From contig NZ_CP038634.1 in the NCBI RefSeq assembly GCF_004768545.1, forward strand, positions 186,001 through 250,000: DNA of 64,000 bases, written 5' to 3'. Positions 48,169 to 64,000 of this stretch are shown one piece after another (the first letter of the stretch is position 1; the number at the start of each line of letters is the position of its first letter). The notes beneath the pieces were generated by a model that had not been told where the DNA came from, did not search any database, and worked only from the letters and a program-made list of their open reading frames with translations. The translations under genes were made by a program, and so were the position numbers. Origin of the DNA: Cupriavidus oxalaticus (GTDB taxonomy: Bacteria > Pseudomonadota > Gammaproteobacteria > Burkholderiales > Burkholderiaceae).

Positions 48169-48229
48169 TGTCCCTGAATGCAAAAACGTTGTCCCGGAAA
48201 GCCAAACCGGAGACAGCCAATCTTAGATA
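48169..48229 (+). promoter_or_regulatory. Predicted AraC-type activator site and promoter of the MFS operon
   Basis: Direct repeats TGTCCCTGAATGCAAA (48169-48184) and TGTCCCGGAAAGCCAA (48190-48205) are spaced 21 bp apart. A -10-like TAGATA (48224-48229) lies 18 bp after the second repeat, which would place that repeat over the -35. The same repeats, spacing and a shared GATACTTC octamer 21 bp downstream occur at 56617-56681 before the cleavage-enzyme gene. Confidence 0.65.
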
Positions 48230-48320
48230 CTTCGCGGGTCGCAACCGACCTGCGCCCGCCGCCTGCAAGAGCATTGCCTCCCCTGCTGGCGTAGCCGTGG
48301 CCACTACTGGAAGAGCTTTC

Positions 48321-49664
48321 ATGATCGGGCAACCCACTAACACCCATCGCGCAATTGCAACGCCCTCGGGCAAGGCATCGCAATCCGGCCTCTACGGCTG
48401 GATCGTCTTTGCCCTGAGCTTTGGCCTGCTGCTGTCGGACTACATGTCCCGCCAGGTACTGAACGCGGTATTCCCCCTGCTGAAGGCCGAGTGGTCGCTG
48501 AGTGACACCGAGCTCGGTGCGCTGGGCGGCATCGTGGCGCTGATGGTCGGCTTGCTGACGTTCCCGCTGTCGATCCTGGCGGACCGCTGGGGCCGGGTCA
48601 GGAGCCTGGTGCTGATGGCGGCGCTGTGGAGCCTGGCCACGCTGGGCTGCGCGCTGGCGAACAACTTCGGCGAGATGTTCATCGCGCGCCTGTGCGTGGG
48701 CATCGGCGAGGCGGCCTACGGCAGCGTCGGCATTGCCGTGGTGCTGTCGGTGTTTCCGCGCCACCTGCGGGCGAGCCTGAGTTCGGCCTTTATCGCCGGC
48801 GGCGCGTTCGGCTCCGTGCTGGGCATGGCGCTGGGCGGTGCGTTGTCGGCCCATTTCGGCTGGCGCTGGGCCTTTGCCGGCATGGCGCTGTTCGGGCTGG
48901 TGCTGGTGGCGGTGTTCCGCCTGGTCGTGACCGAACCGCGGCTGCAGGCCCGGCGCAAGGCGCTGGGCGAGGACGCCGAGACCGCATCGCGCGAGCCTGC
49001 CCTGGCCATGCGCCCGCTGCTCGCCGCGCTGTTCTCGGCGCGCTCGATCCTCTGCGCCTATGTCGGCAGCGCCATGCAACTGCTGGTGATGGGCGCCCTG
49101 ATCACCTGGATGCCGAGCTACCTGGCGCGCTACTACGGCATGGCCACCGATCGCGCCGGCGTGGTCGCGGCGGGCTTCGTGCTGGCCGGCGGCGTCGGCA
49201 TGGTGCTGTGCGGGGCGATGACCGACTGGATCGCCCGCCAGGCGCCTTGCCGCAAGTGGGCGGTCGCGGTGACCTACAGCCTGATCTGCTGCGGCCTGCT
49301 GCTGACGGCGTTCCGGCTCCCCGCGGGCAGCCTGCAACTGGCGCTGATCGGTGCGGGCATGCTGTTTGTCGGCGGCACCGCCGGCCCCGCCAGCGCCGCG
49401 GTCGCCAACCTGACGCGCCCGGCCATCCATGCCACCGCCTTTGCCACGCTCACGCTGGCCAACAACCTGCTGGGCCTGGCGCCCGGACCGTTCGTCACCG
49501 GCCTGCTCGCCGACCACATCGGCCTGCAAGGCGCATTGCAGTGGGTGCCGCTGGCGTCGCTGGTCGCCGCCGCCGCCTTCCTTGCCGGCCGCCGCTACTA
49601 CGCAGCCGACCTGCGCCGCCTGGAGAGCCGGAACGAAGACGCCGCTCCCGCAACTTCTCACTGA
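48321..49664 (+). CDS. MFS transporter
   Basis: A 447-residue major facilitator with 12 predicted membrane helices in two halves. The first loop carries the MFS signature-like LADRWGRVRSLVLMAALWSL, and helix 4-5 contains LCVGIGEAAYGSVGIAVVLS with FPRHLRASLSSAFIAGG after it, as in organic-anion (ACS/spinster-type) transporters. The ATG at 48321 follows GGAAGAG. A small alpha/beta hydrolase begins 9 bp after its stop and a porin gene follows, suggesting an uptake operon for an organic acid or its ester or amide. Confidence 0.9.
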   Translation: MIGQPTNTHRAIATPSGKASQSGLYGWIVFALSFGLLLSDYMSRQVLNAVFPLLKAEWSLSDTELGALGGIVALMVGLLTFPLSILADRWGRVRSLVLMAALWSLATLGCALANNFGEMFIARLCVGIGEAAYGSVGIAVVLSVFPRHLRASLSSAFIAGGAFGSVLGMALGGALSAHFGWRWAFAGMALFGLVLVAVFRLVVTEPRLQARRKALGEDAETASREPALAMRPLLAALFSARSILCAYVGSAMQLLVMGALITWMPSYLARYYGMATDRAGVVAAGFVLAGGVGMVLCGAMTDWIARQAPCRKWAVAVTYSLICCGLLLTAFRLPAGSLQLALIGAGMLFVGGTAGPASAAVANLTRPAIHATAFATLTLANNLLGLAPGPFVTGLLADHIGLQGALQWVPLASLVAAAAFLAGRRYYAADLRRLESRNEDAAPATSH

Positions 49665-49673
49665 TCTGGAACC

Positions 49674-50267
49674 ATGAGCCTTACCCCTGACACCACCGTG
49701 CTGCTGGTCCCCGGCCTGCGCGACCACGTTGCCGAGCACTGGCAGACCCTGCTCCAGGCACAGCTGCCCAACGCGCGCTCGGTGCCGCCGCTCGAGCACG
49801 ACAAGCTCAGCCGCGATGCCCGCGTTGCCGCGCTGGACGCCGCACTGGCCGAGATCGACGGTCCGGTCGTGCTGGTCGCGCACAGCGCCGGCGTCATGAT
49901 CACCGTGCACTGGGCTGCGCATGCGGACACGCATGCGGCTGCAGAAAACCGCCGCAAGATCCGCGGCGCACTGCTGGCCACGCCCGCCGACCTGGAAACC
50001 CCCATGCCGGCCGGCTACCCTGACACCGCCACGCTGGCGCAGCACGGCTGGCTGCCCGTTCCCAGGAGCCCGCTGCCCTTCCCGACCATCCTCGCCGCTA
50101 GCCGCAACGATCCGCTGGCGACCTACCCGCGCGCCGCCGAAATGGCCAGCGACTGGGGCAGCAAGCTGGTCGACCTGGGCGAAGTCGGCCACCTCAATCC
50201 CGCCGCGGGCTACGGCCCATGGCCGCGCGCGACCGCGTTGATCGATGAGTTGCTGCGCGCCGGCTGA
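49674..50267 (+). CDS. RBBP9/YdeN family small serine hydrolase
   Basis: A 197-residue alpha/beta hydrolase of the RBBP9 type: VLLVPGLRDHVAEHWQTLLQ, nucleophile elbow VLVAHSAGVMITVHW, PFPTILAASRNDPLATYPRA (Asp) and DLGEVGHLNPAAGYGPW (His), a full Ser-Asp-His triad. The substrate is unknown. It is 9 bp after the MFS gene, so it is co-translated and may process the imported compound. Confidence 0.9.
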   Translation: MSLTPDTTVLLVPGLRDHVAEHWQTLLQAQLPNARSVPPLEHDKLSRDARVAALDAALAEIDGPVVLVAHSAGVMITVHWAAHADTHAAAENRRKIRGALLATPADLETPMPAGYPDTATLAQHGWLPVPRSPLPFPTILAASRNDPLATYPRAAEMASDWGSKLVDLGEVGHLNPAAGYGPWPRATALIDELLRAG

Positions 50268-50360
50268 TCCAGCGCATTGATTTGTAGTACCCGGCAATAC
50301 CAAACGAGACGGAAATATCCGCATCCCAAAAACCAAAGGAAACAAGTGGAGAAACAATCC

Positions 50361-51527
50361 ATGAAGATCAGGACCCTGGCTGCAGCCGCAGCGCTTGCCT
50401 GCTCGGGCAGCGCGCTCGCGCAGTCATCGACCGTCACGCTGTATGGCGTGGTGGACATCAACGTCGAATACGCCAACCATGTTGGCGCGGTGCCGGTGGC
50501 GAGCAACCAGTTCAACCGCGGCCCGGCAAACGACGTGTACCGCATGAACTCGGGTGGCATCTCCGGCTCGCGCTGGGGCATGCGCGGCACCGAGGATCTC
50601 GGCGGCGGCCTGAAAGGGCTGTTCGTGCTGGAAAGCGGCTTTAACCTCGATACCGGCACGATGCAGCAAAGCAACCGCCTGTTCGGCCGCCAGGCCTTCG
50701 TCGGCCTGCAGAAGGCAGGCATCGGCCAGATCAGCCTGGGCCGCCAGTACACCTCGATGTTCGAGGCGCTGGCGAACTTCTCGCCGGCGGCCTACGCCAC
50801 CCAGTACGAGCCGGTGGTGCTGCAGTCCGGCCCGAACTTCCGCGCCGACAACACCGTCAAGTACACCGGCCAGTTCGGCCCGGTCACCGCGCTGGCGCAC
50901 TGGTCCTTCGGCACCGGCCTGGCCCTGCCGGCGACCGTGGGCATTGCCACGCCGATCGGCGGCAACGGCGAAGTGCCCGGGCAGTTCCGGCGCGACACCG
51001 CGTGGGGCGCCGCGGTGGCCTACCAGGGCGGCCCGTTCGGCGTGACCGTCGGCTACGACCAGTGGAACCCGACCATCGGCACCAGCAACGGCGAGGTCAA
51101 GAAGGCCGTGGTCGGCGCGAGCTATTCGTATGGCCCGGCAAAGATCATGGGCGGCTATCGCTGGGGCCAGAACAAGAACGCCGCGGACGTGGTGATCCAG
51201 CGCGACGATTTCTACTGGATCGGCGGCACCTACCAGGTCACCCCGGCCATCGGCCTGACGCTCGAATACGCCTACGACAACGTCAAGACCCTGTATGGCG
51301 ATACCCATGTCCCCAACCCGTGGCAGGTCGCCTTCATCGCCAACTACGCGTTCTCCAAGCGCACCGACGTGTACCTGACCACGGCCTACGCCAAGAATGC
51401 CGGCCTGATGATGGAATCGCTGGCTACGGTCTACGCCAACAGCCTGTCGCTGGGCAACAGCTACGCGCTGGCCAACGGGCAGAGCAACATGTTCGGCGCG
51501 GCAGTGGGCATCCGCCACAAGTTCTGA
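50361..51527 (+). CDS. Outer-membrane porin (Gram-negative porin family)
   Basis: A 388-residue trimeric general porin of the betaproteobacterial type. Signal LAAAAALACSGSALAQ, then SSTVTLYGVVDINVEYAN, GSRWGMRGTEDLGGGLKGLF, LFGRQAFVGLQKAGIGQISL and GRQYTSMFE, and a C-terminus ending GAAVGIRHKF with the terminal phenylalanine needed for BAM assembly. The loop near residues 95-140 would form the constriction. It lies 93 bp after the hydrolase gene and is followed by a strong terminator, so it is either the last gene of the MFS operon or has its own promoter. Confidence 0.95.
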   Translation: MKIRTLAAAAALACSGSALAQSSTVTLYGVVDINVEYANHVGAVPVASNQFNRGPANDVYRMNSGGISGSRWGMRGTEDLGGGLKGLFVLESGFNLDTGTMQQSNRLFGRQAFVGLQKAGIGQISLGRQYTSMFEALANFSPAAYATQYEPVVLQSGPNFRADNTVKYTGQFGPVTALAHWSFGTGLALPATVGIATPIGGNGEVPGQFRRDTAWGAAVAYQGGPFGVTVGYDQWNPTIGTSNGEVKKAVVGASYSYGPAKIMGGYRWGQNKNAADVVIQRDDFYWIGGTYQVTPAIGLTLEYAYDNVKTLYGDTHVPNPWQVAFIANYAFSKRTDVYLTTAYAKNAGLMMESLATVYANSLSLGNSYALANGQSNMFGAAVGIRHKF

Positions 51528-51570
51528 CAACGCGTCTCGCGGCATCGATCCCGCAAGCGATGCTCTTTGC

Positions 51571-51606
51571 GGCCGCCCGGTCTTTCCGGGACGGCCGATT
51601 TTTTTT
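51571..51606 (+). terminator. Porin-operon terminator
   Basis: GGCCGCCCGG and CCGGGACGGCC pair around TCTTT with one unpaired base, followed by an eight-T run (51599-51606). It lies 44 bp after the porin stop. Confidence 0.85.
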
Positions 51607-51647
51607 GGGACGGTGGAAATGCGGCGTGCGCCAGGCGCACGCCGCCG

Positions 51648-52481
51648 CTATCGGCGCAGGAAGCCGTGGACGATGCCGGCCGCATGCTCCGGCCCGGTCA
51701 CCAGGAAGAGGTGGCCATCATCGACCATCTGCAGCGTCGAGCCAGGGATGCGGGCGGCCAGGATCCTGGCATTGACCGCGGGAACGATCGGATCGTCGGT
51801 GCCGTGCATGACCAGCGTGGGCTGGCGCAGCGAGCCCAGCCACGGCAGGCTGCTCCAGCCCCATGCCGCGAGCAGCTGGTAAAGATAGCCGCGCCCGGCC
51901 GGCGGCTGCATGTGCTGGCCGTGTTCGTCGAGCAGGGAAGGATCACGTCGAAAAGCGCCGCCGTAGAGGTCGGCGCCGACGCGGCGCAGGTATTGCGGGT
52001 CGGTATAGCGGCGCACGCCGATCATCCTGGCAAGCACCGACAGGCGGCCCGGCACCATGATCACGCCGGGCGACGTGGCCGCCAGCACCAGGCGCCGGCA
52101 CCGCGACGAATAAAGACGGGCGAACTCCTGCGCCAGCGCCCCGCCCCACGACACCCCCAGCGCATCGACCTGGCCCGTATAGCCGAGATACGACAGCAGG
52201 CGGTCGGCGAGCACGCAAAGACTGGAAAAACGGTACGGCACCATCGGCGCGGGCGAGCCGCCGGCGCCGGGAACGTCGAATAGAATGACTTCGATGCCCG
52301 GCAGGGCATCGACAAAGGGGGCGAGCAGTTCGAGATTGGCGCCGATGCCGTTGAATATCAGCAGCGGCGGTCCGGCATCGCTGCCGGGCCGGATGCCGGC
52401 ACGCACGACCTGGCCGTCCAGGTCCACGGTCAGCACCTGCAGCTTTTGGCCGGCATGCGTGCCGGTGTCTGTTGTTGTCAT
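51648..52481 (-). CDS. Medium-chain-length PHA depolymerase-like alpha/beta hydrolase (PhaZ-like)
   Basis: A 277-residue hydrolase with the PhaZ phrases LLIFNGIGANLELLAPFVDA, LPGIEVILFDVPGAGGSPAP and PYRFSSLCVLADRLLSYLGY. The nucleophile elbow is GVSWGGALAQEFAR, the Asp lies in HGTDDPIVP and the His in DDGHLFLV. Intracellular PhaZ degrades stored polyhydroxyalkanoate. It is the last gene of a leftward run with phasin, PHA synthase and a MaoC hydratase, which supports the assignment. The ATG at 52481 has AGGA 9 bp upstream. Confidence 0.85.
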   Translation of the reverse strand: MTTTDTGTHAGQKLQVLTVDLDGQVVRAGIRPGSDAGPPLLIFNGIGANLELLAPFVDALPGIEVILFDVPGAGGSPAPMVPYRFSSLCVLADRLLSYLGYTGQVDALGVSWGGALAQEFARLYSSRCRRLVLAATSPGVIMVPGRLSVLARMIGVRRYTDPQYLRRVGADLYGGAFRRDPSLLDEHGQHMQPPAGRGYLYQLLAAWGWSSLPWLGSLRQPTLVMHGTDDPIVPAVNARILAARIPGSTLQMVDDGHLFLVTGPEHAAGIVHGFLRR

Positions 52482-52542
52482 CAGCTTGTCCTGGAGAGTT
52501 TGCGCACGGGCATGGCCGGCGCGCGGCCATGCCCGCCGCAAT

Positions 52543-52974
52543 TTATTGCTTCGGGCGCAGAATCCCCTTCACCTCCTCGACGTTCTCGGCAAGGCGGCGT
52601 CCGACCACGGAAATGCTGTCCGCCTGCGCCTTGTACAGCGTGTCGGTCAGGCCGCGCACGCCGGCAACGGCCTTCTGCAGCGAGCGCGGCAGGGCTTCCG
52701 CCAGCTTCACGGGCGCCTTGCCATCGACGGCCTGGCCGCCGCGCGACAGCGCCTGCAGATCGGCGGCGGCATCGCACAGGAACTCTGCCTGCTGGCGCAC
52801 CAGCGATTGCAGGCCTCCGAGCAGCATGACGTTGACGCTGGCGAGCGCCTCGATGTCCTTGCGGCGCGATTCCAGGACCGCGGCCGGGTCCAGGCGGTTG
52901 TTGCGCACGAAGTCGAGCAGCTTCTTGTGCGGGGCTTGCGCGGCCGATGTGCCTGCGGTGTTGGTCGATTCCAT
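52543..52974 (-). CDS. Phasin family protein, PHA granule-associated
   Basis: A 143-residue amphipathic helical protein: LLDFVRNNRLDPAAVLESRR, KDIEALASVNVMLLGGLQSL and VRQQAEFLCDAAADLQALSR. No signal or catalytic motif is present. Such helices coat PHA granules and set their size. AGGAG lies 8 bp before the ATG at 52974. It sits between phaC and the phaZ-like gene on the same strand, which is the main reason for the call. Confidence 0.8.
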   Translation of the reverse strand: MESTNTAGTSAAQAPHKKLLDFVRNNRLDPAAVLESRRKDIEALASVNVMLLGGLQSLVRQQAEFLCDAAADLQALSRGGQAVDGKAPVKLAEALPRSLQKAVAGVRGLTDTLYKAQADSISVVGRRLAENVEEVKGILRPKQ

Positions 52975-53072
52975 ATTGCTTTCTCCTGAAGGTTGGGTTG
53001 GGAAATTCAGATCGCGATGTTGGGTACTGCGATGTTGCGGTGTTGCGATGTTGCGGCGTCTCGCCATGCGCG

Positions 53073-54743
53073 CTACGCCTCGGTCACATAGCGGCCCGGC
53101 GCTTCGCCGCAGGGGGCGAAACGCAGGCTGCCGGGGGCCGCGGGCGCGTTGCGCTTCGGGCCGGAGCGCTTCTTCAGCCACTGGGTCCAATGCTCCCACC
53201 ACGAGCCCTGCTCGGCGGTGGCGCCGTCCAGCCAGGCTTCGGGGTTCGCATCGGGCGTGCCGCTGCGGAAATACTTCGACTTGGCATTGCCGGGCGGATT
53301 GACCAGGCTTTGCACGTGGCCGCTGGAACTCAGCACGAACTCGGTGCGCCCGCCGAACGCCTGCGCCGAGCGGTACACCGCCTTCCACGGCGTGATGTGG
53401 TCGGTCATGCCCGCCAGCACGTACTTGTCGCAGTCCACGTCGGACAGCGAAATGGCGTGGCCGAGCACCTGCAGCGCACCCGGCGTGGCGAGCTGGTTCA
53501 GCGTCAGCATGTCCAGGAACTGGCCATGCAGGCCGGCCGGCAGGCGCGTGGTGTCGTTGTTCCAGTAGAGGACGTCGAACGCGGGCGGCGCATTGCCGAG
53601 CAGGTAGTTGTTGACCCAGTAGTTCCACACCAGGTCGTTGGGCCGCAGCCACGCAAACACCCGGCCCAGCGCCTCGCCATCGAGCACGCCGCGCGACGCG
53701 CTGCCGTGCCGCGCCGCCGTGACCGCCTCGGGCGTGCTGAACAGCCCGAGCTGCGACTCGGCATCGAGGCCGAACACCGCCACCATCAGCGTGACGGCGT
53801 GCACGAGCTTCTCGCCACTGGCGGCGCAATAGCCCAGCAGCGCCGCCATCGTCATCGCGCCGGAGCAGGCGCCATGCACGTTGACATCGGCACTGCCGGT
53901 GATGTCGCGCATCGCATGGATCGCCTCGACCAGCGCGCCGACATAGGTATCGAGATTCCAGTCGCGCTGTGCCGCCGTGGGGTTGCGCCAGCTGACCACG
54001 AAGACCTGCAGTCCCTGGGCCAGCATGTACTCCACCATGCTCTTGCCAGGCGCAAGGTCGAACACGTAGAACTTGTTGACCTGCGGCGGCACGATCAGCT
54101 GGGGCCGCGCATGCACTTTCGCGGTGGTCGGGGCGTACTGGATCAGCTCCAGCACCTCATTGCGGAACACCACCGCGCCAGGCGTGGCAGCCAGGTTCGT
54201 GCCGACGCTGAACGCATCCTTGTCGACCTGTGCGGGCATGCCGCCGTTGGTCAGCACATCGCTGGCCAGGTTGATCATGCCGCTGACCAGGTTCATGCCG
54301 CACGACTCGAAGGTCTTGCGCAGCGCCGCCGGGTTGCCTGCCAGGGTGTTGGTCGGTGCCAGCGCGTCGGTCAGCAGCGACATGAAGTATTGCGCGCGAT
54401 GCTTGCTGCGCGGATCCATCACCGAACGCCGCACCGTGCCCTCGAGCGCGTCGCGCCAGGCCTGGTAGCCCTGCAGCGACATGCGGAACAGCGGATGGTC
54501 GCGCCAGGCGTCGTCGCCGAACCGGCGGTCGCGCGCCGACGGCATCGGTGCCGAGCCGTCCAGCACGCTGACCAGGTCATGGGTGAGCTGCGCCTGCTGC
54601 TCGAGCACCAGTACCGGCTCCTGCACGCACTGCGCGCCGATCTGCTGGGCGGCCGTGATGAGATCCTCGGGACGGATCCCGACAAAGGGATTGGGTCCTG
54701 CCAGAAAATCGGTGGGCGCCTCCATGGTGGCTGCATTTGTCAT
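53073..54743 (-). CDS. phaC: Polyhydroxyalkanoate synthase
   Basis: A 556-residue PHA synthase that polymerises (R)-3-hydroxyacyl-CoA on granules. The lipase-like box is GACSGAM with catalytic Cys293; Asp is in AGMTDHITPWKAVYRSAQAF and His in SSSGHVQSLVNPPGNAKSKY. Other family segments: FVVSWRNPTAAQRDWNLDTY and LRPNDLVWNYWVNNYLLGNA. The length is nearer to class II (about 560) than to class I PhaC (about 590), and the neighbouring mcl-type PhaZ agrees. No phaA/phaB genes are adjacent, so this looks like a second synthase locus (phaC2 type). AGGAG lies 6 bp before the ATG. Confidence 0.93.
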   Translation of the reverse strand: MTNAATMEAPTDFLAGPNPFVGIRPEDLITAAQQIGAQCVQEPVLVLEQQAQLTHDLVSVLDGSAPMPSARDRRFGDDAWRDHPLFRMSLQGYQAWRDALEGTVRRSVMDPRSKHRAQYFMSLLTDALAPTNTLAGNPAALRKTFESCGMNLVSGMINLASDVLTNGGMPAQVDKDAFSVGTNLAATPGAVVFRNEVLELIQYAPTTAKVHARPQLIVPPQVNKFYVFDLAPGKSMVEYMLAQGLQVFVVSWRNPTAAQRDWNLDTYVGALVEAIHAMRDITGSADVNVHGACSGAMTMAALLGYCAASGEKLVHAVTLMVAVFGLDAESQLGLFSTPEAVTAARHGSASRGVLDGEALGRVFAWLRPNDLVWNYWVNNYLLGNAPPAFDVLYWNNDTTRLPAGLHGQFLDMLTLNQLATPGALQVLGHAISLSDVDCDKYVLAGMTDHITPWKAVYRSAQAFGGRTEFVLSSSGHVQSLVNPPGNAKSKYFRSGTPDANPEAWLDGATAEQGSWWEHWTQWLKKRSGPKRNAPAAPGSLRFAPCGEAPGRYVTEA

Positions 54744-54799
54744 ACTGCTCTCCTGTCTCTTTCTTTCCTGCTTCTGCTTTTGCTTCCGCTGTTACCGTT

Positions 54800-55264
54800 T
54801 CACGCCATGACAAGCGCCAGGGCTTCGGCCACCATCGCCGGCTTGGCTTCGCCCTCGATCTCCATCGTGTTTTCCGTGCGCAGCAGCACGCGGCCGTCGC
54901 CCTTGTTGTCGGCCGACACCAGCCTGACGCGATTGCGCACGCGCGCCCCGGCCTTCACCGGCGCGAGGAAGCGCGTCTTCTCCACGCCATAGTTGACCGC
55001 GGCGCGCGCATCCGCCGGCACCACGCCCATGTCGACCAGCTTCCCTGCCAGCAGGGACAGCGTCAGGTAGCCGTGGGCGATGGTGCCGCCGAACGGGCTT
55101 TCGCGGCGCGCGCGCTCCACGTCGACGTGGATCCACTGGCTGTCGCCGGTGCATTGCGCGAATGCATCGATGCGCGCCTGGTCCACTTCCATCCACGCCG
55201 AAACGCCGAGTTCCTTGCCGACGAATGCGCCGAGCGTGCCCATGCTGTAACCTTCGATTGCCAT
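54800..55264 (-). CDS. MaoC-like (R)-enoyl-CoA hydratase, PhaJ-like
   Basis: A 154-residue single hot-dog protein. The hydratase motif is present: RIDAFAQCTGDSQWIHVDVE and RARRESPFGGTIAHGYLTLS (Asp and His of the catalytic pair). It would convert enoyl-CoA from beta-oxidation to (R)-3-hydroxyacyl-CoA, the monomer for PHA synthase. It is the first gene of the leftward run, 56 bp before phaC, an arrangement that supports monomer supply. Related NodN-type hydratases look similar, so the PHA role rests on context. Start at ATG 55264. Confidence 0.85.
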   Translation of the reverse strand: MAIEGYSMGTLGAFVGKELGVSAWMEVDQARIDAFAQCTGDSQWIHVDVERARRESPFGGTIAHGYLTLSLLAGKLVDMGVVPADARAAVNYGVEKTRFLAPVKAGARVRNRVRLVSADNKGDGRVLLRTENTMEIEGEAKPAMVAEALALVMA

Positions 55265-55503
55265 ATGCCTCCTTGCTTGCTTTGGCGTCCGTGCATGCCG
55301 ACCGTGTCGGCGCACGCATGTTTGTACTGCCGCATCGTAGTGGCGCGGCGCGCAAACACGGCTACCAAAACCGGCCCATTTGCTGACAATGCTTGCCGCT
55401 TTGCAGGGCCGTGGCACGGCGTGCGCGCAATGCGCTTCCGCGGGCGCACCGAATGGCAGGATTTGTCAGTCGCGCGGCCGGCATTGCCAGCACCGTTGCT
55501 GCG

Positions 55504-56517
55504 CTAAGGCGTGCGGCGGTACGTGTTTGGCGTGCTGCCGGTCCAGTGCCGGAAGGCGCGGTGGAAGGCAGTCGGATTGTCGAAACCCACGTCGAAGGCA
55601 ATGGCCGTGATCGCGTCATCGGAGCGCGTCAGGCGCTGGATGGCAATGTCGCGCCGCACGCCGTCCTTGATCGCCTGGAAGGTGGTGCCCTCCGCGGACA
55701 GCCGGCGGCAGAGCGTGCGCACCGAGCAGTGCAGCGCCGCCGCCACGGCTTCGATGGTCGGCGCTACCGGCAGGCAATCCGCCACGTACTGCCTGACGCG
55801 ATGACAGGTCATGGGCTCGGCAAACGTGACAAAGATCCAGTCCTCGGGCGCGCGTGCCAGGAATTTCTCAAGGTCGGACTTGCGTTGCCGCACCGGCATG
55901 TCGAGGAATGCCGCGTCGAAGGCAATGCCGCCGCGCTCGCAGCCGAAATGCACCGGGCCGGGAAACAGGTAGAGATGGTCACTCGCCTGCGCGGGGCGCG
56001 CTGACGGCAGCTGCACCGCCTGCAGCGGGATCTTGTGGCGGATCAGCCATGACGCCACGCCATGCACCAGCTTCAGCATCAGCTCGCGTGCCATCGGGCC
56101 CACGGCCGGACCGGCTGCAGCCTCCACCAGTTCCACATGCGCGGCACTGCCTTCGCGCCGCGACTCCACGCGGAACTCATCCAGCAGCAGCCGGAAGAAC
56201 TGCCCGAAGCGATGCAGCGCGACTTCGAGCCGTGGCGCATCCAGCAAGCTCAGGCACAGGTACTTGAGCGTGCCGTTGCGCAGCGGACGGCTGAAGATGC
56301 CGGGCATCTCATCGTCGAGCTCGTGCGCCAGCAGCCGGTACAAGGTCGAGAACTGCTCCTGCGTCACGCGTGCCGCGGGCTCGTCCATCAGCTCCGTGGC
56401 AATGCCGGAACGCGCCGCCAGCTGCGCGATCAGCGCAGGATCGGCACCGGGCAGGAAGCCATGGACGAAGGAAACCGGGACGGTGGGGGACAGGCAATTC
56501 ACTTGAAAAACCGGCAT
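55504..56517 (-). CDS. AraC family transcriptional regulator with arabinose-binding-like N-terminal domain
   Basis: A 337-residue regulator of the OruR/ArgR-like AraC group. The N-terminal domain (VHGFLPGADPALIAQLAARS, LLAHELDDEMPGIFSRPLRN, GTLKYLCLSLLDAPRLEVAL) is followed by the C-terminal AraC helix-turn-helix pair (PTIEAVAAALHCSVRTLCRR, LTRSDDAITAIAFDVGFDNP, TAFHRAFRHWTGSTPNTYRR). It is divergent from the cleavage-enzyme gene, with 21-bp-period direct repeats between them, a typical AraC target, and the same repeats precede the MFS operon. The start is uncertain: 56517 is chosen because upstream residues do not look conserved; 56601 is possible. Confidence 0.88.
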   Translation of the reverse strand: MPVFQVNCLSPTVPVSFVHGFLPGADPALIAQLAARSGIATELMDEPAARVTQEQFSTLYRLLAHELDDEMPGIFSRPLRNGTLKYLCLSLLDAPRLEVALHRFGQFFRLLLDEFRVESRREGSAAHVELVEAAAGPAVGPMARELMLKLVHGVASWLIRHKIPLQAVQLPSARPAQASDHLYLFPGPVHFGCERGGIAFDAAFLDMPVRQRKSDLEKFLARAPEDWIFVTFAEPMTCHRVRQYVADCLPVAPTIEAVAAALHCSVRTLCRRLSAEGTTFQAIKDGVRRDIAIQRLTRSDDAITAIAFDVGFDNPTAFHRAFRHWTGSTPNTYRRTP

Positions 56518-56616
56518 CGGATGCCGCGGGTGGGAGACGAAAATACGGCGCGTCTGCGCCATCGCCCCGACACTGTGCAACGTTGCCCCGGCCGCGCACA
56601 TCGTGTTTTCCCTGAC

Positions 56617-56681
56617 TGTCCCGAAATGTCAAGCGATCGTCCCGGATCGTCAAATTGCTTCATGCCGTTCGCCGATACTTC
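56617..56681 (+). promoter_or_regulatory. Predicted AraC-type activator site and promoter of the cleavage-enzyme operon
   Basis: Direct repeats TGTCCCGAAATGTCAA (56617-56632) and CGTCCCGGATCGTCAA (56638-56653) lie 21 bp apart, two turns of the helix. GATACTTC (56674-56681) follows 21 bp after the second repeat, exactly as in the MFS promoter. The distance to the start codon (about 120 bp) is also nearly the same in both. Confidence 0.65.
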
Positions 56682-56773: not shown

Positions 56774-57826
56774 ATGCAATTCCTCGACGATTCCCTGCAC
56801 CCCGAGAACATGGACAAGGTGGTCATCACCGTGGCGCCGTACGGTCCGGAATGGATGCCGGCAGATTTCCCGGAAGACATCCCCGTGACCATGGAAGAGC
56901 AGGTGCAGAAGGCCGTCGACTGCTATAACGCCGGCGCCACCGTGCTGCACCTGCACGTGCGCGAACTGGATGGCAAGGGTTCCAAGCGCCTGTCGAAGTT
57001 CAACGAGCTGATCGCCGGCGTGCGCGCAGCCGTGCCCGACATGATCATCCAGGTCGGCGGCTCGATCTCGTTCGCGCCGGAAGACGACGGCCAGGCCGCC
57101 AAGTGGCTGTCGGACGACACCCGCCACATGCTGGCCGAACTGGACCCGAAGCCGGACCAGGTCACCGTGGCGATCAACACCACGCAGATGAACATCATGG
57201 AGCTGCTGTACCCGGAATACACCGCGGGTACCTCGCTGTCCCATCCGGCCTACGTCGAAGCTTATCGCGAAATGACCGTGCCGGCCGGCCCGGGCTGGGT
57301 GGAAGAGCACCTGCGCCGCTTGAGCAACGCTGGCGTCCAGCCGCACTTCCAGCTGACCGGCATGCACGCCCTCGAAACCCTCGAGCGGATGGTGCGCGCC
57401 GGCAAGTACATGGGCCCGCTGAACCTGACCTGGATCGGCATCGGCGGCGGCTTCGACGGTCCCAACCCGTTCAACTTCTTCAACTTCATCCACCGCGCGC
57501 CCAACGGCTGCACGCTGACCGCCGAGTCGCTGCTGAAGAACGTGCTGCCGTTCAACATGATGGCGATGGCGATGGGCCTGCACCCGCGCTGCGGCATCGA
57601 GGACACGATCATCGACCAGCACGGCAACCGCATGACCTCGGTGCAGCAGATCGAGCAATGCGTGCGGGTGGCCAAGGAACTGGGCCGCGAGATCGCCTCG
57701 GGCAAGGAAGCGCGCGAGATCTACCGCATCGGCACCTGGTACGACAGCGCCGAGGAAACCCTTGCGGCGCACGGCATGGCGCCCAACCGCAAGCCCGGGC
57801 AGAAGAACCTGCCGGTGCGCGCCTGA
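56774..57826 (+). CDS. Beta-keto acid cleavage enzyme (BKACE, DUF849; 3-keto-5-aminohexanoate cleavage family)
   Basis: A 350-residue TIM-barrel Zn enzyme that condenses a beta-keto acid with acetyl-CoA to give acetoacetate and a new acyl-CoA. The N-terminal Zn ligands His59 and His61 are in ATVLHLHVRELDGKGSKRL; further motifs are IIQVGGSISFAPEDDG, QPHFQLTGMHALETLERMVR, LTWIGIGGGFDGPNPFNFFN and MGLHPRCGIEDTI. BKACE substrates vary widely (aminohexanoate, dehydrocarnitine, others), and nothing here fixes one. It is divergent from the AraC gene and heads a run with a DUF1289 protein, a DsbA-fold protein and a Bug protein. Confidence 0.93.
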   Translation: MQFLDDSLHPENMDKVVITVAPYGPEWMPADFPEDIPVTMEEQVQKAVDCYNAGATVLHLHVRELDGKGSKRLSKFNELIAGVRAAVPDMIIQVGGSISFAPEDDGQAAKWLSDDTRHMLAELDPKPDQVTVAINTTQMNIMELLYPEYTAGTSLSHPAYVEAYREMTVPAGPGWVEEHLRRLSNAGVQPHFQLTGMHALETLERMVRAGKYMGPLNLTWIGIGGGFDGPNPFNFFNFIHRAPNGCTLTAESLLKNVLPFNMMAMAMGLHPRCGIEDTIIDQHGNRMTSVQQIEQCVRVAKELGREIASGKEAREIYRIGTWYDSAEETLAAHGMAPNRKPGQKNLPVRA

Positions 57827-58173: not shown

Positions 58174-58872
58174 ATGACCCACCCCACGACGCTTACGGTC
58201 GATGCCTACTTCGACCTGATCTGCCCCTGGTGCATGATCGGCAAGAAGCACCTCGAAACCGCCATTGAATGGCTCGCCCGGGAGTACCCGAAAGTTGCCG
58301 TCCGGGTCGCCTGGCACTCTTATCCGCTGATCCCGACCACGCCACCGGAGGGCAGGCCCTACCGCGAGTTCTACCTCGCGCGGCTGGGAGGCCCCGAGGC
58401 CATGGCCGCGCGCCAGGCGCAAGTCTGCGCTGCCGCGCGCGAAGCCGGCATCACGCTGGCGCTGGATCGCATCGAGACCTTTCCCAGCACGCTGCTGGCC
58501 CACCGGCTGGTCCGCCACGCCGTCAGGCAAGCCGGCCCCGAGGCCGCTTCGGCGCTGCTGGACGAGCTGTTCACGCGCTACTTCATCCGCGCCGAGAACA
58601 TCGGCGATCCGCAAGTCCTGCGGCGCGCCGCGGCAGCCTGCGGCATCGCACTGCCTGACGCAGGCGCCGACGGCGACCTGCCCGATCTGGACTGGCTGCC
58701 CCCGCTGCACGACCCGGACGCCCCGCCGCTGCGCACCGGCTTCGGCGTGCCGCATGTGGTGTTCAACGGCACGCACAGCGTGTCGGGCGCCCGGCCGCCT
58801 TCGGTGCTGGTCGAAGCCATGCAGCGGGCCCTTGCGCGCGCGAAGCAGCGCGCCACGCTCGCTGCCGGCTGA
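58174..58872 (+). CDS. DsbA-fold oxidoreductase, FrnE/2-hydroxychromene-2-carboxylate isomerase-like
   Basis: A 232-residue cytoplasmic thioredoxin-fold protein without a signal peptide. The active-site-like CPWC (Cys17, Cys20) is in DAYFDLICPWCMIGKKHLET; the cis-proline segment is GFGVPHVVFNGTHSVSGARP. Further family motifs are LAHRLVRHAVRQAGPEAASA and YFIRAENIGDPQVLRRAAAA. FrnE-type proteins catalyse disulfide or polyketide-type redox reactions, and the substrate is open. It lies downstream of the DUF1289 gene, probably in the same operon. Confidence 0.88.
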   Translation: MTHPTTLTVDAYFDLICPWCMIGKKHLETAIEWLAREYPKVAVRVAWHSYPLIPTTPPEGRPYREFYLARLGGPEAMAARQAQVCAAAREAGITLALDRIETFPSTLLAHRLVRHAVRQAGPEAASALLDELFTRYFIRAENIGDPQVLRRAAAACGIALPDAGADGDLPDLDWLPPLHDPDAPPLRTGFGVPHVVFNGTHSVSGARPPSVLVEAMQRALARAKQRATLAAG

Positions 58873-58994: not shown

Positions 58995-59972
58995 ATGCCA
59001 ACCCGCCCCACCCTGTTCCGTCCCCGCCACGCCGCGGTTGCCGCCATGCTGGCACTGGCGATGCCGGCCGCGATGGCCTGGACCAGCAAGCCCGTGCGCA
59101 TGCTGGTGCCGGCGCCTGCCGGCGGCACCATGGACGTGATCGCACGCCTGCTGGCCGACCAGCTTTCGGCCGACCTCGGCACGCCCGTGGTGGTCGACAA
59201 CAAGCCGGGCGCCGGCGGCGGCATCGCGATTAGCGCGATGCTGGCCGCGCCGCCCGACGGCCAGACCATCATGGTGACCGCGACCAACGTGCTGACCGAA
59301 GTGCCGCACGTGCTGAAGACTCCCTACAACACCATGAAGGACATCCGCCCGCTGGCCGCCGTGGCCCGCTCGCGGCTGCTGCTGGTGGGCTCGCCGACGC
59401 TGCCCGCCAAGGACTTCAACGGCCTGGTGAGCTACGCGCGTGCCAACCCCGGCAAGCTCAGCTTCGCTTCCTACAGCGCCGGCACCGCTTCGCACTACGC
59501 GGGCGTGATCGTGAACCAGAAGTCCGGCATGGACCTGCAGCACGTGCCGTTCGCCGGCTCGGCGCCAGCGCTGGCCCAGGTGATGGGCGGCCAGATCGCC
59601 GTGATGTACGACGGCATGGTGACGTCGCTGCCGATGATCAAGGCGGGCAAGCTGCAGCCGTACGCCGTGGCATCGAAGAACCGCTCGCCGCTGCTGCCGC
59701 AGGTGCCGACCTTCGCCGAACTGGGCTATCCCGATGTGGAGTTCAGCAACTGGGTCGGCGTGATCGCATCGGCGCGCGTGCCGGTCGAACTGGCGCAGAA
59801 GATCCAGACCGCGACCTACAAGGCCGCGGCGACACCCAAGGTGCAGGAGCGGATGCAGGCGCTGAGCTATGAGCCGATGCAGCCACAGTCGCTGCAGCAG
59901 CTCGGGCAGTCGCTGCACGAAGAGTTCGAGCGCAATGGCGCGATTGTGAAGGCGTTCAATATCCAGCCTTGA
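58995..59972 (+). CDS. Bug-family (TctC-like) periplasmic solute-binding protein
   Basis: A 325-residue protein, the third Bug protein in the window. Signal AAVAAMLALAMPAAMAW; family motifs PVRMLVPAPAGGTMDVIARL, GTPVVVDNKPGAGGGIAISA, LQHVPFAGSAPALAQVMGGQ and VPTFAELGYPDVEFSNW. GGAGA precedes the ATG after an A/T-rich stretch (CATATCTTTAAACGGAG), so it may have its own promoter. It follows the cleavage-enzyme run by 122 bp and may bind the substrate of that pathway. Confidence 0.9.
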   Translation: MPTRPTLFRPRHAAVAAMLALAMPAAMAWTSKPVRMLVPAPAGGTMDVIARLLADQLSADLGTPVVVDNKPGAGGGIAISAMLAAPPDGQTIMVTATNVLTEVPHVLKTPYNTMKDIRPLAAVARSRLLLVGSPTLPAKDFNGLVSYARANPGKLSFASYSAGTASHYAGVIVNQKSGMDLQHVPFAGSAPALAQVMGGQIAVMYDGMVTSLPMIKAGKLQPYAVASKNRSPLLPQVPTFAELGYPDVEFSNWVGVIASARVPVELAQKIQTATYKAAATPKVQERMQALSYEPMQPQSLQQLGQSLHEEFERNGAIVKAFNIQP

Positions 59973-60550: not shown

Positions 60551-62203
60551 TCAGGCTACGTCTTCCCGCAGCTGCTTCTTGTTGATCTTGCCCACGCTGG
60601 TCTTCGGGATCGCCTCGACGAACGTGATGCGGTCGGCTTCAGGCACCGCGTACTTGCTGATGCGCTGCGATTCGACGTGGCCCAGCAGGTGCGCGCGGAC
60701 CTGTTCCGCATTCACCTCCACGCCCGGCTTGCGTACCACGAACGCCATCGGCCGCTCGCCCCACCTGGCGTCGGGGACACCGATCACCGCGCATTCCAGC
60801 ACGCCTGGCACTTCGGTGATCAGATTCTCCACCTCGATCGACGACACCCACTCGCCGCCGGTCTTGATCACGTCCTTGATGCGGTCGACGATCTGCACGA
60901 AGCCGTCCTGCCCCATCACCGCGACGTCCTGCGTGTGCAGGTAGCCGCCGGCCCACAGGTCTTCCGATGCCGCCGGCTTGCCGAAGTACGCCTTGGTCAG
61001 GAACGGCGCACGCAGCACGATCTCGCCGCGGCTCTTGCCGTCGTGCGGCAGGTCCTGCATGTCTTCGCTGACGATGCGGTAGTCCACCAGCGTCACCGGG
61101 CGGCCGGTGGAGCAGCGCATGCGCACTTCTTCGGCACGGTCCTTCGGCACGCACCCGGGCGGCAGCTGCGCCAGCGACACGATCGGGCCGGTCTCCGACA
61201 TGCCGTAGCCGGCGAAGATGTCGATGCCGCGATCCAGGGCCGCCTCGCACAGCGCGGGCGGCAACGCCGAGCCACCGATGATGATCTTCCAGCCCGACAG
61301 GTCCGGCTTGCCGTCGGCGGAGGCCTGCAGCAGCATCTGCAGGATGGTTGGCACGCAGTGCGAGAAAGTGACCTTCTCGGTCTCGCGCAATTTCAGCAGC
61401 TGGTCGGGCAGGTAGCGGCCCGGCAGCACCGTGCGCAGCCCGAGCATCACGGCGACATACGGGATGCCCCATGCCAGCACGTGGAACATCGGCGTGATCG
61501 GCATGTAGACATCTTCACGATGCATGCGCTGTCCTTCGCGCGGCGAGCACAGGCTCGTCGCCGACGCCAGCGTGTGCAGCACGATCTCGCGGTGGCTGTA
61601 GCAGACACCCTTCGGATCGCCGGTGGTGCCGGTGGTATAGAAGGTGGCGGCCTTGGTGTTCTCGTCGAAATCCGCGAACTCGAAGTCCGCGGGCGCATGC
61701 TCCAGCAGCGCCTCGTACTCGCCGGCGAACGGCACGCTGGACTTCGGCACGTCCTGGCCATCGGCCAGCAGCACGAAGCGCGGGTTGCCGGTGAGCTGCG
61801 GGCGGATCTGCTCGATCACCGGCAGGAAATCCGGGTGCACCAGCACGATCGCGGCGCCTGCATCGTTGAGCGTGTAGAGGATCTGCTGGGGCGACAGCCG
61901 CACATTGACGGTGAACAGCGTGGCGCCCATCATCGGTACGCCGAAATAGCATTCCAGGTAGCGGTGGCTGTCCCAGTCCATCACGGCCACGGTGCTGCCG
62001 TGGCGGATGTCCAGCGCAGCCAGCGCAGACGCCAGCTTGCCGATGCGGCGGCGGAAATCGCGGAAGGTGTAGCGCATTTCGCCGCGGTAGCTGATCTCCT
62101 GGTCGCCATAGAGGCTCAGGGCATTGGTCAGCAGCTGCTTGACCAGCAGCGGATAGGCGTAGGCCGACTTGGCCGGCGTGATCAGGTTGTCTTGCATGTT
62201 CAT
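60551..62203 (-). CDS. AMP-forming fatty/aryl acyl-CoA synthetase
   Basis: A 550-residue adenylate-forming ligase. Phosphate loop TFYTTGTTGDPKGVCYSHRE; also PMFHVLAWGIPYVAVMLGLR, IIIGGSALPPALCEAALDRG, FAGYGMSETGPIVSLAQLPP, YLHTQDVAVMGQDGFVQIVD, RIKDVIKTGGEWVSSIEVEN and, at the C-terminus, IPKTSVGKINKKQLRED with the catalytic lysine. This is the FadK/medium-chain type close to dimethylmalonyl- or fatty-acid-CoA ligases; the substrate is unknown. It is the last gene of a leftward run with a TauD dioxygenase (17 bp upstream) and a quinone oxidoreductase. The ATG at 62203 is chosen; one two codons later is equally possible. Confidence 0.92.
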   Translation of the reverse strand: MNMQDNLITPAKSAYAYPLLVKQLLTNALSLYGDQEISYRGEMRYTFRDFRRRIGKLASALAALDIRHGSTVAVMDWDSHRYLECYFGVPMMGATLFTVNVRLSPQQILYTLNDAGAAIVLVHPDFLPVIEQIRPQLTGNPRFVLLADGQDVPKSSVPFAGEYEALLEHAPADFEFADFDENTKAATFYTTGTTGDPKGVCYSHREIVLHTLASATSLCSPREGQRMHREDVYMPITPMFHVLAWGIPYVAVMLGLRTVLPGRYLPDQLLKLRETEKVTFSHCVPTILQMLLQASADGKPDLSGWKIIIGGSALPPALCEAALDRGIDIFAGYGMSETGPIVSLAQLPPGCVPKDRAEEVRMRCSTGRPVTLVDYRIVSEDMQDLPHDGKSRGEIVLRAPFLTKAYFGKPAASEDLWAGGYLHTQDVAVMGQDGFVQIVDRIKDVIKTGGEWVSSIEVENLITEVPGVLECAVIGVPDARWGERPMAFVVRKPGVEVNAEQVRAHLLGHVESQRISKYAVPEADRITFVEAIPKTSVGKINKKQLREDVA

Positions 62204-62220
62204 TCGCTCGAATCCAGGGT

Positions 62221-63069
62221 TCAGTACGGCCTGGTGCCGATGATGCCGGCCCGCTCCATCTTGCGGTGGCACGGCGGATAATCCATCACAGCATAGTGCT
62301 GCGTCGCGGTGTTGTCCCAGATCGCCACGCTGTCGGGCGCCCAGCGCCAGCGCACCTGGTACTCGGGGATGTACGCCTGGCTTACCAGGTAGCGCAGCAG
62401 GTCGGCGGCGCCCGGGTTGGCGTCCTGCCCGAAGCGCACGCGCGCGGCGGTGTGGTAGTTGGTGAAGTGCGTGGTGAAGGCGTTGACGTAAAGCACCTTC
62501 TCGCCGGTGTCCGGGTGCGTGCGCACCACCGGATGCTCGGCATCGGGATACTGCGCCTTCAGCGCCAGGCGCTTCTCGACCGGCATGGCGGCGCCGAAGC
62601 TCGCTTCGATGCTATGGCGCGCGCGCAGGTCGGCGATCTGCGTCTTGATGTGCTCGGGCAGCCGTTCGTAAGCCAGCGCCATGTTCGCCCACATGGTGTC
62701 GCCGCCAACCGGCGGGCATTCCACGCAGCGCAGCACCGCGCCGAACTGCGGCGCCTCGCGCCACGTGGTGTCGGAGTGCCAGGCGTTCTCGTAGCGGTCG
62801 TTGGGCTGGTCGGGCGTCTTGTAGATGCGCACCAGGCCGGGGTGTTCCGGGTCGCTGCCGGCCACCGGATGGTCTTCCAGTTCGCCGAAGCGGCTGGCGA
62901 AGGCGACATGCTCGGCCCGGCTGAACTTCTGGTCGCGCAGGAACAGCACGCGGTGCTGCAGCAGCAACGCGCGGATCTCGGCGAACAGGCCGTCGTCGCG
63001 CACGGCATCGGCCAGGTTGACGCCGCTCAGTTCGGCGCCCAGCGCGCAGGTGAGTTGTTGGACTCGCAT
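62221..63069 (-). CDS. TauD/TfdA family Fe(II)/2-oxoglutarate dioxygenase
   Basis: A 282-residue non-heme dioxygenase. The facial triad is visible: His and Asp in NAWHSDTTWREAPQFGAVLR, and the distal His in WDNTATQHYAVMDY; the 2-oxoglutarate arginine is in PPCHRKMERAGIIG. The N-terminus is LGAELSGVNLADAVRDDGLF, as in TauD. Such enzymes hydroxylate sulfonates, phenoxy-acids and similar compounds to release sulfite or a phenol. Placed beside an acyl-CoA ligase and a quinone reductase, it probably opens a catabolic route. Start at ATG 63069. Confidence 0.92.
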   Translation of the reverse strand: MRVQQLTCALGAELSGVNLADAVRDDGLFAEIRALLLQHRVLFLRDQKFSRAEHVAFASRFGELEDHPVAGSDPEHPGLVRIYKTPDQPNDRYENAWHSDTTWREAPQFGAVLRCVECPPVGGDTMWANMALAYERLPEHIKTQIADLRARHSIEASFGAAMPVEKRLALKAQYPDAEHPVVRTHPDTGEKVLYVNAFTTHFTNYHTAARVRFGQDANPGAADLLRYLVSQAYIPEYQVRWRWAPDSVAIWDNTATQHYAVMDYPPCHRKMERAGIIGTRPY

Positions 63070-63082
63070 GGCTTTTGGCTCC

Positions 63083-64000
63083 TCAGATGACAAAGATCGA
63101 CGAACCGGTGGTCTTGCGCGACTCCAGGTCGATATGCGCCTGCACCGCGTCTTCGAGCGCGTAGCGCTGGTTGATCTCGATCCGGATGCGGCCGGAGCCG
63201 ACATGATCGAACAGTTCCCCGGCCAGTTGCGCCTTCTCGGCCGGATCGAAGATGTAGTCGGCCAGCGCCGGACGGGTCAGGAACAGCGAGCCCTTCATCG
63301 CCAGCAGCACCGGGTCGAACGGCGGGATCGGGCCGGAGGCCGTGCCGACGCAGACCATGGTGCCGCGGCGGCGCAGCGAATCCAGCGAAGACGTGAAGGT
63401 GCTCTTGCCGACGCTGTCGAACACCACCGACACGCCGACGCCGTCGGTCAGTTCGCGCACGCGCTTGGCCACGTCTTCATGGCTGTAGTTGATGATGTGG
63501 TCGCAGCCATGGGCACGCGCCACTTCGGCCTTGGCCTCGCTCGACACCGTGCCGATCACGGTCAGTCCCAGCAGCTTGGCCCACTGCGAAACGATCAGGC
63601 CCACGCCGCCGGCTGCCGCGTGCAGCAGGATGGTTTCGCCCGGCTGGAACGCATGGATGCGGCGCATCAGGTACGCCGAAGTCAGGCCGCGCATGGTCAT
63701 CGCCGCCGCGGTCTCGAAGCCGATGGTGTCGGGCAGGCGGATCAGCGGCGCCGCCGGCACCAGGCGCTCGGTGCTGTAGGCGCCCAGCGTGTTGATAAAG
63801 CCGGTATACGTGACGCGATCGCCCACGGCGACGTTGGTCACGCCCGGGCCGATGGCCTGCACCACGCCCGAGGCTTCCACGCCCATGCCGGACGGCAGCG
63901 GCACCGGGTAGGTGCCGTTGCGGAAATAGGTGTCTGCGTAGTTCAGGCCCACCGCCACGTGGCGGATGCGCACCTGTCCCGCGCCGGGCTCTCCCACCGC
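63083..64000 (-). CDS. Quinone oxidoreductase/zinc-less alcohol dehydrogenase family (Qor-like), 5' end beyond the window
   Basis: At least 306 residues of an NADPH-dependent MDR-family quinone reductase. Seen: VRIRHVAVGLNYADTYFRNG, PLPSGMGVEASGVVQAIGPG, VAVGDRVTYTG, TMRGLTSAYLMRR, the nucleotide site HAAAGGVGLIVSQWAKLLGL, VVFDSVGKSTFTSSLDSLRR and a C-terminal LEDAVQAHIDLESRKTTGSS. No structural zinc cysteines are present. The start codon lies to the right of base 64000; about 20 residues are missing. It precedes the TauD gene by 13 bp on the same strand. Confidence 0.93.
   Translation of the reverse strand, partial: AVGEPGAGQVRIRHVAVGLNYADTYFRNGTYPVPLPSGMGVEASGVVQAIGPGVTNVAVGDRVTYTGFINTLGAYSTERLVPAAPLIRLPDTIGFETAAAMTMRGLTSAYLMRRIHAFQPGETILLHAAAGGVGLIVSQWAKLLGLTVIGTVSSEAKAEVARAHGCDHIINYSHEDVAKRVRELTDGVGVSVVFDSVGKSTFTSSLDSLRRRGTMVCVGTASGPIPPFDPVLLAMKGSLFLTRPALADYIFDPAEKAQLAGELFDHVGSGRIRIEINQRYALEDAVQAHIDLESRKTTGSSIFVI

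Follow-up and report, generated by a model that had tools for sequence, protein, structure and literature searches.

Paired repeats with a 21-bp period at BKACE and MFS transporter promoters of Cupriavidus oxalaticus point to a candidate AraC-type activator encoded away from both

Which regulator reads a pair of promoters that share one layout is the question raised by a stretch of the Cupriavidus oxalaticus genome (assembly GCF_004768545.1, contig NZ_CP038634.1, positions 186,001 to 250,000 of the forward strand), whose full 64,000 nucleotides we call the window. One promoter precedes the gene for a major facilitator superfamily (MFS) transporter and the other the gene for a beta-keto acid cleavage enzyme (BKACE), with polyhydroxyalkanoate (PHA) genes lying between them. 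An earlier note, made from the letters of the window, had named the AraC-type gene divergent to BKACE (here the window AraC) as the activator of both. We favour a different assignment and give it a probability of about 0.8: as read from the sequence, the BKACE and MFS promoters would be activated by BkaR (a name coined here), a PF12625 regulator encoded just beyond the window end, the window AraC would run the PHA genes, and an AraC3-like regulator would run the genes for Qor, TauD and a CoA ligase. The promoter elements, in window coordinates, are as follows.

48169..48205, plus strand: paired half-sites of TGTCCC type with a 21-bp period (48169-48184 and 48190-48205) at the MFS promoter, conserved among relatives, where it precedes MFS, hydrolase or porin
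56617..56653, plus strand: paired half-sites of TGTCCC type with a 21-bp period (56617-56632 and 56638-56653) at the BKACE promoter, present in 25 of 80 BKACE loci
48226..48233, plus strand: GATACTTC, predicted -10 element of the MFS promoter; the -35 position, 48203-48208, reads CAAACC
56674..56681, plus strand: GATACTTC, predicted -10 element of the BKACE promoter; the -35 position, 56651-56656, reads CAAATT

The direct repeats that the earlier note had seen before both genes are present with the period it gave, and the remainder of its geometry holds as well: the first base of GATACTTC lies 21 nt past the last base of the second repeat at both promoters, and the start codons, placed by the note about 120 bp downstream, are at 48321 and 56774, that is 116 and 121 nt past that repeat. 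Against the consensus proposed in the note the four 16-bp repeats carry 3, 2, 1 and 3 mismatches in order; the window holds four matches to this consensus, compared with a mean of 0.27 and a maximum of 2 in shuffled versions (0 of 100 reached four). A scan of the genome for the pair with at most 3 mismatches, a check that the note had recommended, returned six pairs in 7,968,737 bases and none for the reversed pattern. Two of these are the window pairs, and the others lie on contigs C3 (150896, plus; 154231, plus; 160934, minus) and C2 (1766263, minus); in all six, ATACT begins at offset 21 or 22 after the second repeat.

The same arrangement recurs in relatives. We scanned the best 80 of 420 BKACE relatives, which come from Cupriavidus (the nearest), Caballeronia, Paraburkholderia, Burkholderia and Ralstonia, with a half-site matrix trained on 12 half-sites of this genome, from which the -10 element was excluded. 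This yielded 53 pairs, compared with one in the reversed sequences, and the 21-bp spacing was found in 52 of the 53 as in both window pairs. ATACT stood at offset 21-22 in 50 of the 53 and in all 49 strong matches (summed score of at least 25), where about 0.05% would be expected for three positions. The three matches without it (two of L071, and L086) also score below 25, as does a fourth, before MFS in L088. Strong matches precede BKACE, MFS (hydrolase or porin where the MFS match is missing) or genes of the kind found on C3. That the repeats and the GATACTTC elements are a functionless chance resemblance, as the one control match and the three matches without a -10 element might suggest, is therefore extremely improbable: the fixed -10 element in every strong match and the absence of control matches, both in this genome and in 160 genomes of the family, speak against it, and we rejected a chance origin of the repeats on the shuffle and reversed-pattern controls.

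At both window promoters the proximal half-site overlaps a poor -35 hexamer by 3 bp (positions assigned with an assumed 17-nt spacer), which fits the expectation for a class II activator promoter, and both are predicted to have the class II layout of XylS at Pm. The two repeats would serve as distal and proximal half-sites to which an AraC/XylS activator of PF12625 type binds head to tail, contacting RNA polymerase at the weak -35 as XylS does at Pm. In each half-site the first helix-turn-helix (HTH) would read box A and the second box B; the overlap of activator and polymerase sites at Pm is reportedly the subject of a paper of its own. BkaR has a PF12625 N-terminal domain. In passages of PMC5481539, Pm of the TOL plasmid is described as having two 15-bp direct repeats separated by 6 bp, each consisting of boxes A and B, and XylS monomers as occupying the proximal and then the distal site. 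The period of 21 bp is thus the same as in the window promoters, whereas the boxes described there, TGCA and GGTA, differ from the TGTCCC and ATGTCAA-like boxes found here.

The genes behind the two promoters, together with a neighbouring run on the opposite strand, are these.

48321..49664, plus strand: MFS transporter (PF07690, E 5.8e-44)
49674..50267, plus strand: serine hydrolase (PF06821, E 2.2e-43)
50361..51527, plus strand: porin (PF13609), probably the final gene of the MFS unit
56774..57826, plus strand: BKACE (PF05853, E 7.6e-60, 203 bits against a cut-off of 24.8)
58174..58872, plus strand: DsbA-like protein (PF01323) downstream of BKACE, a presumed member of its unit; position kept in several Cupriavidus loci
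58995..59972, plus strand: TctC/Bug-type substrate-binding protein (PF03401) downstream of BKACE, a presumed member of its unit; kept in Cupriavidus loci
60551..63997, minus strand: Qor (zinc-binding dehydrogenase family, PF00107, extending past the window end), TauD-family dioxygenase (PF02668) and CoA ligase (PF00501)

That MFS, hydrolase, porin and BKACE form one functional set, as the earlier note had proposed in speaking of a single catabolic unit, is well supported because of the gene order in relatives. In 30 of the 80 loci, mostly from Paraburkholderia, BKACE, MFS, quinone oxidoreductase, TauD and hydrolase follow one another on the same strand, with CoA ligase and porin behind them in many of the Paraburkholderia loci, while 16 loci resemble the window in having MFS, hydrolase or porin on the strand of BKACE and upstream of that gene. 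Paired strong sites lend further support: a second strong site occurs in 12 of the 25 loci with the motif before BKACE, ahead of MFS (9), hydrolase (2) or porin (1), and where the MFS match is absent the site stands directly before the hydrolase (L051, L077) or the porin (L075, L153). By the same reasoning the set should also include Qor, TauD and CoA ligase at 60551-63997. Any substrate of the BKACE is putative at this stage; no named NCBIfam equivalog passed for it (the best reached 124.4 of 382 bits), and its matches to solved structures are general. Portions of PMC6365646 place BKACE in the deoxyribonate catabolism clusters of Paraburkholderia, Burkholderia and Pseudomonas, which are likewise catabolic gene clusters; a deoxyribonate role was considered and dropped because the gene sets differ, those portions naming a short-chain dehydrogenase/reductase (SDR) and a lactonase (P. 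simiae) where TauD, Qor, CoA ligase and hydrolase are found here.

What, then, would read the two promoters? Of the regulators in question it is BkaR (PF12625, 9.1e-43; HTH_18, 7.7e-14) that follows the motif. Called at an identity of at least 60%, it is directly divergent from BKACE in 21 of the 25 motif loci, among them most of those from Cupriavidus, and is found in none of the other 55; in the remaining four (L044, L045, L053, L062) it is encoded elsewhere in the genome at 77-99% identity. The orthologue in the present genome (match C1:251431-252339, frame 251350-252366, equivalent to 65350-66366 in window numbering) is 80% identical to the copy of L041, and lies behind an AraC3-like gene that is divergent from Qor, some ten kilobases from the neighbour of BKACE. 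Among the 160 family genomes, with the motif taken at up to 2 mismatches and BkaR at E <=1e-90, the motif occurs in 15, BkaR in 15 and both in 14 (Fisher p ~5e-18, not corrected for kinship). At up to 3 mismatches 20 genomes match, five of which need the third mismatch; the matches of G108, G098, G062 and G034 appear unrelated, those of G098 and G062 and the second of G002 being one common sequence. G043 was left out of the 15 despite a BkaR-like gene beside its site, and genes of this kind (48-49%) stand beside the sites of all three non-Cupriavidus g24 genomes, G043, G087 and G151. In G133, which alone among the motif genomes lacks BkaR, a regulator from a different lineage (34% to AraC2 of C3) is divergent from MFS with the site between them, and its recognition helices (NRRTLHRRL, SLSAFSRWF) and those of BkaR here (DRRTIHRRL, SLSTFSRWF) are alike, unlike those of the window AraC (SVRTLCRRL, NPTAFHRAF). 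We suggest that BkaR, with some effector, would fill both half-sites and recruit RNA polymerase to the two promoters together, thereby switching on BKACE (and the genes behind it) jointly with MFS, hydrolase and porin; the extent of these operons is a prediction as well.

Several observations weigh against this assignment. No more than 14 first-look candidates in each of the 160 genomes were scored, which means that weak homologues of BkaR may escape, and the genomes share kinship, so that the p-values are not independent. In addition, bkaR adjoins neither window promoter, whereas the window AraC is the regulator nearest to BKACE, being divergent to it here and in L044, L045 and L062; among the 80 loci the window-type AraC is also commoner with the motif (9 of 25 vs 7 of 55, p = 0.03), an association that is weak and may be due to shared Cupriavidus ancestry. 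Finally, paralogues on C3 with similar helices could also bind the sites.

The first of the alternatives to which these points lead, that the window AraC activates both promoters, we regard as improbable. Our results uphold the idea that both promoters answer to a single kind of AraC-family activator; they do not uphold the gene that the earlier note had chosen, as the motif tracks BkaR (14 of the 15 motif genomes) and not the window AraC (6 of 15, p = 0.36). Homologues of the latter, at E <=1e-100, occur in 44 of the 160 genomes, 38 of which do not carry the motif within 2 mismatches, and 9 of the 15 motif genomes lack a homologue. It is likewise missing from the fetched stretch in 16 of the 25 motif loci, and in L053 (8592-9574) the AraC match is broken in two with the BKACE site retained; the split is perhaps a frameshift or an assembly error. 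Its homologues also go with a different paired site, called type A below, which the window carries before MaoC.

55504..56523, minus strand: AraC-type regulator divergent to BKACE (PF12625, 1.6e-35; HTH_18, 1.2e-20), probably the PHA regulator
55361..55397, minus strand: type-A paired site with a 21-bp period, GGCAAGCATTGTCAGC-N5-GGCCGGTTTTGGTAGC, before MaoC-PhaC-phasin-PhaZ; TACGAT begins 21 nt further
51648..55267, minus strand: PHA genes for a MaoC-like protein, PhaC (PhaC_N, PF07167), a phasin-like protein (below cut-off) and a PhaZ-like depolymerase (TIGR02240 PHA depolymerase, above cut-off)

In their own loci the homologues of the window AraC adjoin an acyl-CoA dehydrogenase gene, for which no match was found inside the window. 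When up to 4 mismatches are allowed, 23 of the 29 regions upstream of this gene carry a pair close to GGCAGATTTTGTCAGT-N5-GGCAGATTTGGATAGC (the pattern being partly derived from the same rows that were then counted), the exceptions being L080, L083, L104, L111, L114 and L204; the reversed pattern gave 0 of 29 even at up to 5 mismatches, and the BkaR pair is absent from these 29 regions (at least 6 mismatches). The present genome has three type-A pairs, with none for the reversed control: the one in the window, one before the acyl-CoA dehydrogenase at C1:122841 and one at C1:601321-601355 (plus). The window AraC thus probably regulates the PHA genes rather than BKACE and MFS, and the earlier description of a unit that brackets the PHA genes is true by position, with the qualification that these genes appear to be separately regulated. 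Upstream of the MaoC pair a type-A half-site recurs in inverted orientation (window 55454-55469, minus strand CTGACAAATCCTGCCA), perhaps as a distal operator; L041, L045 and L046 show similar inverted copies. No named NCBIfam equivalog was obtained for the window AraC (best QhpR, 142.1 against 250 bits; GliR, 105.9 against 570). GliR (PA3027) of Pseudomonas aeruginosa, to whose model this sub-threshold match was made, is described in sections of PMC8151288 as an activator of AraC type that has an upstream site as well as a site overlapping the -35 of its target, a comparable two-site arrangement; the motifs given there, YYGGCGHTDTYSGMC and GGAYAWCGCCG, are unlike the present repeats, and its targets are glycerolipid genes.

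A third site type accompanies the third regulator. Before Qor, outside the window at C1:250142-250178, stands a pair beginning GGCATGAAATGCAAAG with 0 mismatches; three further matches in the genome have 3 mismatches each, and the control gave none. This pair is found in 17 of 18 Cupriavidus Qor promoters (L075 being the exception), and a related pair precedes BKACE in 28 of the 31 loci in which BKACE has a divergent AraC3-like neighbour (all but L067, L116 and L119; reversed, 0). Caballeronia loci, searched for a 21-bp repeat shared by the regions upstream of their BKACE genes, showed none that could be recognised. Qor, TauD and CoA ligase appear, from this distribution, to be run by the tandem AraC3-like regulator through a site of its own.

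The other alternative is that several PF12625 paralogues, namely BkaR together with AraC1 and AraC2 of C3, read both promoters as a mixed set. A second cluster, at C3:145500-165000 (L027), encodes BKACE2 (81% identical), a TctC-like protein, several SDRs and three PF12625-type AraC proteins, and holds three pairs of TGCCCC/TGTCCC type. The helices of AraC1 and AraC2 are related to those of BkaR, and TGCCCC-variant sites are present there (C3:150896, C3:154231 and, mixed, C3:160934); most of the half-sites of this cluster differ, however, at the third base, TGCCCC vs TGTCCC, and across genomes it is BkaR that TGTCCC sites track, which makes a mixed set unlikely in our judgment.

Other copies of the motif lie apart from these clusters. 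The sixth pair with ATACT, C2:1766263-1766299 (L029:8264-8300, minus), lies next to the point where an rRNA operon ends and precedes an open frame whose product would be a small membrane-like protein (MFAIACWLIF...); G123 matches this region with 79% identity over 195 bp, its pair having 3 mismatches and lacking a clear ATACT. A 745-aa open frame, which by eye we take to resemble a monomeric isocitrate dehydrogenase, has a lone perfect TGTCCCGAAATGTCAA without a partner (C1:753188-753203, minus) about 0.2 kb upstream. In L155 (G138), a locus with no BKACE match, a TGTC-type pair without a clear ATACT stands before a DsbA gene and beside a window-type AraC (81%); it looks like a remnant promoter.

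The BkaR-type regulator sits beside BKACE in the non-Cupriavidus genomes G071, G136, G043, G087 and G151; it probably did so in the ancestor as well and was displaced in this lineage, making the PHA regulator the neighbour of BKACE. We lean, by a small degree, towards a scenario in which three paralogous PF12625 regulators within about 11 kb (window AraC, AraC3-like and BkaR) use three different sites of one 21-bp geometry on interleaved gene sets. In this scenario an ancestral operon under the AraC3-like regulator broke up in Cupriavidus, where BkaR took over BKACE and the uptake genes; bkaR then moved in the present lineage, leaving the PHA regulator beside the BKACE promoter.

The type of regulation is already known from XylS-like class II activation; what is distinctive here is the reassigned regulator and the three site types. 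We found no publication on the motif, its regulator or the operon in the open-access library that we searched, which is the sole ground for regarding the regulon as new. The uncharacterised BKACE pathway of Cupriavidus and Paraburkholderia now has a testable regulon, with promoters, a candidate activator and predicted start regions. The BKACE promoter is also a clear example of a divergent neighbour that is probably not the cognate activator and, if the proposed history is true, of a regulator wrongly assigned when position is the guide. The three sites, alike in geometry but different in their letters and each with its own type of regulator, make a small natural data set on specificity in the AraC family, and would allow a natural test of the way in which recognition helices determine that specificity under a fixed promoter geometry.

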